21,602 bases of DNA from a virus: IMG/VR virus record IMGVR_UViG_3300033999_000169, positions 1-21,602 of that record; one strand, written 5' to 3'. The notes beneath the pieces were generated by a model that was not told where the DNA came from, ran no database searches, and worked only from the letters and a program-made list of their open reading frames with translations. Positions 18,174-21,602 of this stretch are shown here, in pieces. Each line of letters opens with the position of its first letter. Positions within the stretch are counted from its first letter, which is position 1. A program made the translations under genes and the position numbers.

Positions 18174-19130
18174 TCACGCATCGCCCATAAGCGTCTTTTT
18201 GGCTTCCGCTATATAGTCCATGTCCAGCGGCTTGTTCTGCGCCCGTGCCAGCGTCATGGCCAGCATGTAAAGCTTAATCATGTAGCGTATGCCGCCTTTC
18301 ATGTTAGCCACCTTGAGCAGGTATTCTCTTACTTCGCGGCTTATATGCCGGCCGTCGAATATCATGTCCATGTCCTCTTCGGTTACAACCGGTTGAAGAC
18401 ACCTCCTGATGCCGATCCTTGAGAAGAACTGTGCGAACGCCGCTTCACCGCGCCCGTACATCCTGTCATGAATGGCTTGGTTGCCGCAGAACACCATGCC
18501 GATACCCTCTGCTTTGTCGTATATCGCGCGCATGACCTCCAATGCCCTCAGCGTCAGGTGCTGCGCCTCGTCTATTATGAGCAGTCGGCCGGTGCCTTTC
18601 AGTGCGCTTATGATCAGATTCTTTTCCTGCCTCAACGTACCGTACTGGTGCTTGCCTATGGCGTCCAGTATCTCTTCAACAATGGCTTTCGGCGTGGCTA
18701 CCGTCGGATCAGCGGATATGTATATCGCATCTGTATGCGTCCGCATGTAGTATTGTATGGCCATTGTCTTGCCCAGCCCGGCATCGCCGTATATCAGCGC
18801 CATGTCTTTGTTTATGTGCGCGTATGATATGGCCGATATAACCGACTTGGCTATCGACGTCATTGCAAATTCCGGTTTTTCGACCGCATCCGCGCGTTGG
18901 TACTCCACGGCTAAAAAGCTCGCTATCTTTTGCGTTATGCCAGTCACGTTGCCTGGATATGTGCCTTTTAGAAACTGTGTCAGAGCCGCCGGCGACATGC
19001 CGATCGCTTTGGCTATGTCGTTCTGGCTCTTGCCTGTGGAATTGATGTACTGCTTTAAAAGCTCCGCAGTCCGTGCCGCCGCCACCTCTTCATCCGTGAA
19101 CTGCCTTTCTTCGGATAATGCCTCTCCCAT
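18174..19130 (-). CDS. MuB-like transposition target-selection ATPase
   Basis: A 318-residue AAA+ protein. Residues about 22-75 (SQNDIAKAIGMSPAALTQFL) form a lambda-repressor-like helix-turn-helix, as in MuB's N-terminal domain. Walker A is GDAGLGKT (115-122), Walker B LLIIDEAQ (183-190), sensor-1 FCGNQ (214-218), and an FSRIG motif (236-240) supplies a likely arginine finger. MuB coats target DNA, delivers target sites to MuA and stimulates strand transfer; target immunity depends on it. The size and order after MuA match Mu (312 residues). GGGAGG precedes the ATG. There is no sign of truncation. Confidence 0.95.
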   Translation of the reverse strand: MGEALSEERQFTDEEVAAARTAELLKQYINSTGKSQNDIAKAIGMSPAALTQFLKGTYPGNVTGITQKIASFLAVEYQRADAVEKPEFAMTSIAKSVISAISYAHINKDMALIYGDAGLGKTMAIQYYMRTHTDAIYISADPTVATPKAIVEEILDAIGKHQYGTLRQEKNLIISALKGTGRLLIIDEAQHLTLRALEVMRAIYDKAEGIGMVFCGNQAIHDRMYGRGEAAFAQFFSRIGIRRCLQPVVTEEDMDMIFDGRHISREVREYLLKVANMKGGIRYMIKLYMLAMTLARAQNKPLDMDYIAEAKKTLMGDA

Positions 19131-19378: not shown

Positions 19379-21373
19379 TCACTTGTTCTGCATGGCTCTG
19401 CGCTGGTATGCGATAGCTATCTCCAGCGTGTCGTTTATATCCTGCATCGTGGTCTTTTTAGTCTTGGCCTGCTGCATCTCTGCGTACTCGATCAGCCAGT
19501 CGTCCGTTGTCTTCTGTCTGGTCTGTCCGCTCTCGGCAGCCTCCGTCACGCGTTTCATGTCGCCGGCGGCTTTTTCCATCTCAGGGTTGCGTACCAGCTC
19601 GACCACGTTGGTCGCCGGTGCGGATTCTTCTTTCGCCTCCTGCCGTGCTTCTATGACGCGCCGCAGGGGATCGGGCTGCATGACCTCTTTTGCCACGGCA
19701 TCTTTGTATGCTTTGGCGCGCTGCCGCGTCTGCTTTTTTTCTTTCATGGCCTGGCGTATGTCGTCGGCCGTGGCGCCCCACGCCAGCGCTTCGCGGTTGG
19801 CCGCCGTGCACAGGAACCTGTCTTCTGTGTCGAACACGTACACCGTGCCGACCTGCTGCAATTCGTATCTGACGTATACCATGTGCTCCTGATGCGGCGC
19901 CAGCTCAGGCGAATAGTACCAGCGCCCGAACAGCCATATGCCGTTGCGCTGCACCTTGAGCGGCTTTGATGTGCGCATCATGAACAGCCTTAGCACGTCA
20001 TCGGGCGCCGTGCGCTTGACCGGCAGCAGTTTGTCGAATACCTCGCGCGGGCTTTTGCCGTTCATGCCGTCGCCGGTATGAGGGTTTTCGTTGTATACGC
20101 TGTCCACCCAATCGCCGAACAGCTTGTCTATTTCGGCTATGGCGGGTATGTTTTCAGGCTTTTTCATGACATCGTTCAGCCTCTCGGGCCTCTCCTGCAC
20201 GTTGCCGCCGCGGTAGGTCAGAAACCACTTGGAGAATTGTTCTTTGACTGTCTCAAAGAAACGTTCCACGGGTTTGGCTTTTGCATTTTCCGGCAGCGCG
20301 AAATGCGGCACTATGCCAAGATGCCGGACCAGCGGCGCAATGCGTTCCTCATCGATATCGGCTGTCACGCGGTGCCCGCGGCCGGCGAAGTCATACGCGG
20401 TGTAATCGCGGCCGTTGTCCATGTATATCTCCAGCGGTATGCCGTATCTGCGTATGGCGCGGCCAAACGAATCGAGTATGATGTCTGTGTTCGGCCCTTC
20501 CGATATGCGGTATCCCACTATGCGGCGTGAGCGCATGTCCATCCACACGGTAATCCACGGGAATATGGGCCTCTTACGGCTGCCCATGCATGCGACGTCG
20601 AGCTGGTGATGATCGGATACCCAGCACTGGTTCGGGACCAGAGCGGTGTAATCGCGCTGGATGTACGGCACGCATTTGTCGTCAAAAGCTTTGGGCCCTT
20701 CGCGGTAGTAGGTGAGTATCTGGTAGTCCATCTCTTTTTTTATTCTGCGTTTGAATGCAGATATCGACGGGATCGGCTCGCCGCGTTTTTGTGCTTCCAG
20801 TTCGATCACGGTGTAGCATGCCGATATCGAGCGCTTGTTTTCGTCCAGATACAGGCTCTTGAACATATCCCACGCCCAATCGGGTATGGTGCTCTGCCAC
20901 TCGCGGCTCATGTATCCGGGTACCAGGCCGGCTATGCCGGCTTCTCTGTAATCGTTCATCCAGCGGTAAAGGGTCGCTATCGATACGTGCTCATCTGGAT
21001 ATGCGATGTTATACTTGTCGGCGAACTCCTGCATAGCGTCTTTTTTGTTTCTGCCGGCTTTTTCTGCCGCCCAGATGTAATGCGTCATGGCCTCCAGCGC
21101 CTTGAGCTTCTTTAAAGCTATCGCTCGGTACTTTTCCGGCACGTCGTCGAGCGGCGTCACGTGAAGCGGCGCGTCCATCTGCTGCATCACGTATTTTATC
21201 TGCGCATCTATGGGCAGCCCGGTTATGGAAATTTGAATAACCTTACCGGCATGTCCGCGTCCGTCTATATACTTCACATCACCATATATGCCGTTTTTTG
21301 CATTGCGCTGTACAGTGCGCTCATCCACATCCAGCAGTTTGGCCGCGGTTGATGTGTCGATATATTCCTGCAC
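19379..21373 (-). CDS. MuA-type DDE transposase
   Basis: A 664-residue transposase. Residues about 3-50 (IDTSTAAKLLDVDERTVQRN) are the first winged-helix DNA-binding domain, and 129-150 (HVSIATLYRWMNDYREAGIA) another helix-turn-helix that contacts the phage ends. The catalytic triad is Asp254 (WVSDHHQLD), Asp319 (IYMDNGRD) and Glu370 (KPVERFFETV). The spacings of 65 and 51 are close to Mu's D269, D336 and E392. The C-terminal Arg/Lys-rich helix (KEKKQTRQRAKAYKDA, about 545-560) and final domain correspond to the MuB/ClpX-interacting part. It cuts and joins phage ends during integration and replicative transposition. The start is GTG (21373), 2 bases after the upstream stop. All catalytic residues are intact. 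Confidence 0.97.
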   Translation of the reverse strand: MQEYIDTSTAAKLLDVDERTVQRNAKNGIYGDVKYIDGRGHAGKVIQISITGLPIDAQIKYVMQQMDAPLHVTPLDDVPEKYRAIALKKLKALEAMTHYIWAAEKAGRNKKDAMQEFADKYNIAYPDEHVSIATLYRWMNDYREAGIAGLVPGYMSREWQSTIPDWAWDMFKSLYLDENKRSISACYTVIELEAQKRGEPIPSISAFKRRIKKEMDYQILTYYREGPKAFDDKCVPYIQRDYTALVPNQCWVSDHHQLDVACMGSRKRPIFPWITVWMDMRSRRIVGYRISEGPNTDIILDSFGRAIRRYGIPLEIYMDNGRDYTAYDFAGRGHRVTADIDEERIAPLVRHLGIVPHFALPENAKAKPVERFFETVKEQFSKWFLTYRGGNVQERPERLNDVMKKPENIPAIAEIDKLFGDWVDSVYNENPHTGDGMNGKSPREVFDKLLPVKRTAPDDVLRLFMMRTSKPLKVQRNGIWLFGRWYYSPELAPHQEHMVYVRYELQQVGTVYVFDTEDRFLCTAANREALAWGATADDIRQAMKEKKQTRQRAKAYKDAVAKEVMQPDPLRRVIEARQEAKEESAPATNVVELVRNPEMEKAAGDMKRVTEAAESGQTRQKTTDDWLIEYAEMQQAKTKKTTMQDINDTLEIAIAYQRRAMQNK

Positions 21374-21375
21374 AG

Positions 21376-21480
21376 TTATCGCCTGCCTTGCTTGTCCGCG
21401 TCGTCGGCTCTGCCGGCCGCCGCGCAGCAGGCCCAGTCTAAAAAGCCTATTGCCAGTAATCCGATTAGTACGTATATCAT
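21376..21480 (-). CDS. 34-residue membrane peptide before the transposase
   Basis: The minus-strand ATG at 21480 opens 34 codons, MIYVLIGLLAIGFLDWACCA then AAGRADDADKQGRR, ending in TAA at 21376-21378. GGGGGG lies 7 bases before the ATG. The first about 20 residues form one membrane span; the AGRADDAD tail is charged. I recall small proteins of this shape (short span, then AGRADE-type tail) in Gram-positive phage early regions but no function. The stop lies 2 bases before the MuA GTG, so translation is probably coupled. It could help regulate MuA translation or have a role at the membrane. Confidence 0.6.
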   Translation of the reverse strand: MIYVLIGLLAIGFLDWACCAAAGRADDADKQGRR

Positions 21481-21517
21481 ATTAAGACCCCCCATTAGGT
21501 TCGTGTTATCTATGTAG

Positions 21518-21577
21518 TGCGGTATGCCGGAGTTGAACCGGATTATGTTTATTGCACGTCCGCGTGCCGTTACCGCA
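21518..21577 (-). ncRNA. tRNA-like structured element in the early leader
   Basis: Read on the minus strand, TGCGGTA (21577-21571) pairs perfectly with TACCGCA (21524-21518) as a 7-base-pair acceptor-like stem. Inside are a hairpin GCACG-CGGA-CGTGC (21567-21554), an A-rich linker AATAAACATAAT, and an arm CCGG-TTCAACT-CCGG (21541-21527). That arm carries GGTTCAACTCC, a perfect match to the tRNA T-arm consensus (GGTTCRANNCC). The whole is 60 bases, too short for a normal tRNA. It has no anticodon arm and no CCA (ACTA follows), so it is not a functional tRNA as written. It lies about 37 bases before the small membrane-protein ATG, in the presumed leader of the transposase operon. Confidence 0.55.
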
Positions 21578-21602
21578 TGTTAACTGTTTTAATGGGATAC
21601 CG

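Follow-up and report, generated by a model that had tools for sequence, protein, structure and literature searches.

The window analysed here is a 21.6-kb IMG/VR fragment of a Mu-like phage, and all of its recognised genes lie on the minus strand. They encode MuA, MuB, GemA, a terminase, the Mu portal protein, Mu F and a DUF2586 sheath-like protein. Directly before MuA lies a small ORF, and in the short gap upstream of both, in sense orientation and 37 bases before the ATG of the small ORF, a tRNA-like element was found (Table 1). The initial annotation had placed such a fold ahead of the transposase genes, and this position was borne out. Only 25 bases of contig remain upstream of the element, which leaves the promoter and the upstream gene out of view. 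A scan of the sense strand for promoters and terminators gave nothing beyond chance, and no phage-end repeats were found. Outside the one close relative described below, no homologue of the small ORF was detected by protein search or by patterns combining T arm and small ORF; pattern matches were true tRNAs or chance, and a weak match of the small ORF to phrog_12200 was judged to be chance. A common gut-phage cassette of element and small membrane ORF had been expected and was not borne out by the searches. Long-range pairing of the motifs CCCATTA and ACAGTTA, 5' of the element, with the Shine-Dalgarno sequence of the small ORF and the MuA start was no better than for shuffled segments, and weaker in the relative.

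Table 1. Features of the tRNA-like element and the neighbouring transposition genes.
Feature	Position	Strand	Sequence	Basis or remark
tRNA-like element, 60 nt	21518..21577	(-)	21577 to 21518: TGCGGTA-ACG-GCACG-CGGA-CGTGC-AATAAACATAAT-CCGG-TTCAACT-CCGG-CA-TACCGCA	Fold and chance rate
Acceptor-like stem, 5' strand	21571..21577	(-)	TGCGGTA	Perfect inverted repeat
Acceptor-like stem, 3' strand	21518..21524	(-)	TACCGCA	Perfect inverted repeat; last base G in L002
Single 5-bp hairpin in place of D and anticodon arms	21554..21567	(-)	GCACG-CGGA-CGTGC	Pair probabilities 0.95-1.0
A-rich linker, 12 nt	21542..21553	(-)	AATAAACATAAT	Unpaired in MFE
T-arm-like hairpin	21527..21541	(-)	CCGG-TTCAACT-CCGG	Fold, pair probabilities; loop matches TTCRANN
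Likely Shine-Dalgarno of small ORF	21488..21493	(-)	GGGGGG	Sequence
34-codon ORF, putative one-pass membrane peptide, directly before MuA	21376..21480	(-)	MIYVLIGLLAIGFLDWACCAAAGRADDADKQGRR	Sequence; 35 codons in L002
MuA-type transposase, GTG start directly after small ORF	19379..21373	(-)		Mu-transpos_C, rve, HTH_Tnp_Mu_2; phrog_310
MuB-type ATPase	18174..19130	(-)		Phage-MuB_C; phrog_296

The predicted fold of the element is both the MFE and the centroid structure (-20.0 kcal/mol, z = -2.0; 11 of 200 shuffles equally stable). Its inner pairs have probabilities of 0.94-1.0 when the element is folded alone and of 0.65-0.99 in a 302-nt context. The acceptor-like stem has the 7 bp of a tRNA acceptor, and its arms are exact complements, as had been claimed. 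The T arm had been described as consensus. This stood for the loop, UUCAACU, which matches at every position; the stem has 4 bp instead of the 5 bp of a tRNA, and two unpaired bases (CA) before the 3' acceptor strand interrupt the direct stacking of T stem on acceptor. In place of a D arm and a 7-nt anticodon loop there is one tight 5-bp hairpin with the 4-nt loop CGGA, followed by the A-rich linker, in agreement with the annotation. No CCA follows the acceptor. Neither ARAGORN nor Rfam RF00005 calls a tRNA at the element, which matches no known Rfam family at gathering score, and no hidden ribozyme was detected in the window up to E 3.

Folding energy alone is ordinary, the element ranking 119th among 2155 intervals of 60 nt on the same strand. 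Its rarity rests on the combination of stem and T arm and not on energy. A 7-bp acceptor stem closing on a T arm at the right offset is expected 0.033 times per 21.6 kb, both strands included (Markov shuffles), a value that serves as a guide and not as a p-value since the scoring was set after the element had been seen. When the window was searched for T arms that fit the consensus and are closed by a stem of 7 bp, only this element reached its score. In this sense the tRNA-like architecture proposed at the outset is indeed rarer than chance. The unremarkable energy rank would fit an ordinary structured 5' leader, in which stem-loops protect the mRNA or tune the access of ribosomes and the likeness to a T arm is accidental. 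T-loop motifs are present in many RNAs, and in the nearest independent relative, L073, a structured leader of another kind lies about equally far upstream of MuA (L073:3770-3866, z -2.6). The rarity of a 7-bp stem closing on a consensus T arm speaks against this explanation, as does the recurrence of tRNA-like folds at this place on the sense strand, and we regard it as possible but rather unlikely.

Relatives were sought with MuA (single query and alignments), with MuB, and with the element both as a DNA pattern and as a covariance model. The sole close relative in the collections searched is IMGVR_UViG_3300034684_000110 (L002/G001), which is 98% identical to the window over 20 kb. Between these otherwise near-identical phages a mosaic exchange is apparent in 20083-21520 (window versus L155), where identity falls to about 80%. 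This block takes in the small ORF and, of MuA, the N-terminal half, which binds DNA; identity returns to 100% at 21519-21602, and one breakpoint coincides with the 3' end of the element (21518/21519). The only change within the element in L002 is the last base, A to G, which turns a T-A pair into T-G and keeps the pairing. The near-identity of the element in L002/G001 follows from the shared 98% backbone and is not proof of purifying selection. Greater conservation of the element than of its flanks was likewise discarded as evidence, the flank being a diverged recombinant block and the element lying on the 98% backbone. The next MuA relatives are L073 (63%, a Tepidanaerobacteraceae MAG) and others at 40% or less. 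The closest independent ones (L073, L011, L012, L049 and BalMu-1) lack both this fold and a hammerhead upstream of MuA.

The breakpoint at exactly the 3' end of the element would fit a region that acts as DNA, either as inverted repeats bound by a repressor or MuA near the left end of the phage or as a short linker for module recombination. Four copies of CGGTA/TACCG lie within 130 bp, and a scan of the window found this density at 8 of 2152 positions. However, the acceptor arms themselves are among these four sites, the two phages differ in the DNA-binding half of MuA and not in the repeats, and the rest of the relative's contig holds no copies resembling this region. A role at the DNA level is quite improbable. 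The same comparison bears on protein coding. On the minus strand one reading frame stays open across the element in each of the two phages, with 44 codons in L002, and of three substitutions there two are synonymous, as might be seen at the 3' end of an upstream gene. A longer coding frame conserved in relatives had been named in the initial annotation as evidence against the fold; the frame exists, but no family match or credible homologue was obtained for it, chance often leaves some frame open for 44 codons, and its start, if any, lies off the contig. We consider coding very improbable.

For about 148 loci, acceptor plus T-arm folds were scored in the 2.5 kb that precede MuA. On the sense strand five tRNA-like folds or tRNA genes from four lineages were found (window, L002, L013, L029 and L041) against 0.35 expected, and on the antisense strand one against 0.38 expected. 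This enrichment supports a real RNA element in the window. In the early operon of a high-GC Mu-like phage, L013:1965-2035 is a true tRNA-Pro gene that scores 46.6 bits in Rfam and precedes MuA; the folds of L029, of its homologue in L006 and of L041 are not called tRNAs. The L041 fold starts directly after a stop codon, between early genes, and a hammerhead follows 24 nt downstream. In L029 and L006 hammerheads flank the fold on both sides, and the middle hairpins have a changed pair in common (A-T to G-C). The arrangement at L006:241-968, L029:672-2504 and L041:2201-2983, with type-II hammerheads around or after the tRNA-like fold in the early operon, suggests excised RNAs with a tRNA-like 3' part.

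The covariance-model search proposed at the outset was run with the fold. Among 146 loci the best non-self match was the L041 fold, at a weak E of 0.056, and 398 Bacillota-phylum genomes, searched with the element as DNA and as model, gave two matches, one without a T loop and one that is degraded and tRNA-like. The latter is a chromosomal, intergenic locus in a Bacillota genome (G340:C32:34439-34500; L292:1501-1562). It lies near microcompartment-type genes, has no ARAGORN call and combines an acceptor with one long hairpin, a T arm and what looks like a CCA. This locus, together with the tRNA-Pro gene upstream of MuA in L013 and the missing tRNA calls at the element, would agree with a functionless relic of a tRNA gene, from phage or host, whose D and anticodon arms have been lost. 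Yet every acceptor pair is intact and the T loop is on consensus throughout, an intact ancestor was not found, and G001 is too near to date any decay. We judge such a relic unlikely.

A separate tRNA-like RNA of 72 nt lies about 2.7 kb downstream of MuA in Mu-like prophages of Fibrobacter (L145:8608-8679, L148:8607-8678, L151:8636-8707 and L137:8369-8440). It is not called a tRNA and has a weak, sub-threshold likeness to mascRNA; all 17 of its 17 pairs are kept across three distinct sequences, with six double changes.

A motif search for type-II hammerheads within 2.5 kb upstream of MuA gave 80 on the sense strand versus one on the antisense strand. They lie at most 600 nt from the MuA start in 65 of 144 loci and at most 60 nt in 37 of 144, and in the 16 loci checked in Rfam they were confirmed at gathering score. 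Many Mu-like prophages of Ruminococcus, Oscillospiraceae and Lachnospiraceae carry them 20-60 nt, or about 280-500 nt, before the MuA start (for example L084:3584-3648, L091:3065-3131, L101:3245-3309, L105:3591-3655, L121:3587-3651, L109:3907-3973 and L142:3917-3986). Downstream of MuA, related loci have matches to Twister-P1 (two below gathering score) and one to RAGATH-28 (L029:6070-6128, L041:6755-6806, L140:5471-5531 and L121:6757-6841). The window has neither a match to the type-II hammerhead model RF02276 nor the conserved core (CUGAUGA, GAAA, GUC). Since hammerheads are absent from the window and from its nearest MuA relatives, the element is an analogue in the same slot and not a shown replacement, and the hammerhead analogy is drawn from more distant MuA lineages.

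Everything about the element beyond its fold, rarity, strand and place we infer. The reading that we favour, tentatively and at less than even probability, is that in this Mu-like phage of Bacillota-type affinity the element serves as a processing or protection signal of the RNase P/Z type in the early transcript. The element would be transcribed together with MuA in the early message. Its acceptor stem and T arm would stack to mimic the part of a tRNA that is recognised by RNase P and by 3'-end tRNA nucleases, and RNase P/Z or a similar host enzyme would act on it. The small ORF and MuA would thus lie just downstream of the point where the message is cut or its end protected, a cut parting the leader from the transposition genes. 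This processing signal is favoured by the fold and its rarity, the sense position before MuA, the T-A to T-G change that keeps the pair in L002, the sense-strand enrichment of tRNA-like folds, the L041 model match, the hammerheads in the same slot and the RNase P precedents. The short T stem, the two-base break in the stack, the missing CCA, the ordinary folding energy and the weakness of the L041 match argue against it, as does the lack of this fold and of hammerheads in the closest independent MuA relatives. Bacterial RNase P accepts heavily truncated tRNA structures, and its phage and mRNA substrates include the M3 and C4 RNAs and polycistronic mRNAs (PMC4919922, PMC11143913). Recognition by tRNA-processing enzymes, as the initial annotation had proposed, is plausible by analogy with this tolerance and with the tRNA-like folds and ribozymes in the same slot; in the sole relative the element has one change.

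A broader reading, which we hold to be speculative and rather improbable, is that RNA cutters are interchangeable in transposable phages of Bacillota and punctuate their early transcript ahead of MuA. Some lineages would use hammerheads, others tRNA mimics that recruit host RNase P/Z (window, L041), and some would have both together. If the processing signal is real, the phage would rely on host tRNA-maturation enzymes for cutting or capping its transposition message, at the slot that self-cleaving ribozymes occupy in other MuA lineages, and the question of why phage operons hold so many self-cleaving RNAs would become testable by cutter swaps in a laboratory phage system.

Among known systems, C4 is an early regulatory RNA that shares a transcript with the gene under its control, lies upstream of that gene and is matured by RNase P. 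The element has no Rfam match to C4, and a C4-type antisense match to downstream ribosome-binding or start sites was not beyond shuffles (137 of 500 as good), so that an antisense role was not supported. The C4 antisense RNA of P1/P7 and phage M3 RNA are early regulatory RNAs of phages and substrates of RNase P (PMC11143913). The Tymovirus tRNA-like 3' end (RF00233) matches the element weakly, on the right strand and in the right place (12.1 bits versus a gathering score of 40); in contrast to the element it is a viral 3' end with a pseudoknot acceptor and is aminoacylated. Theta (HDV-like) ribozymes beside phage tRNAs have been proposed to process 3' trailers (PMC10879173). There a phage tRNA is paired with a cutter, whereas the window has no HDV-like ribozyme and its element is not a tRNA. 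Like the element, mascRNA and menRNA (MALAT1, MEN-beta; RF01684) have about 60 nt, an acceptor stem, a T arm and a reduced middle, and their tRNA-like fold directs RNase P and RNase Z to cut within a long transcript (PMC4919922). They differ as animal nuclear RNAs with a fuller cloverleaf and proven processing, the window element being a predicted fold with no Rfam match. Type-II hammerheads of phage operons occupy the same slot upstream of MuA in many related loci and, unlike the element, are self-cleaving; it has been proposed that their cleavage yields shorter mRNAs from phage transcripts (PMC3088659).
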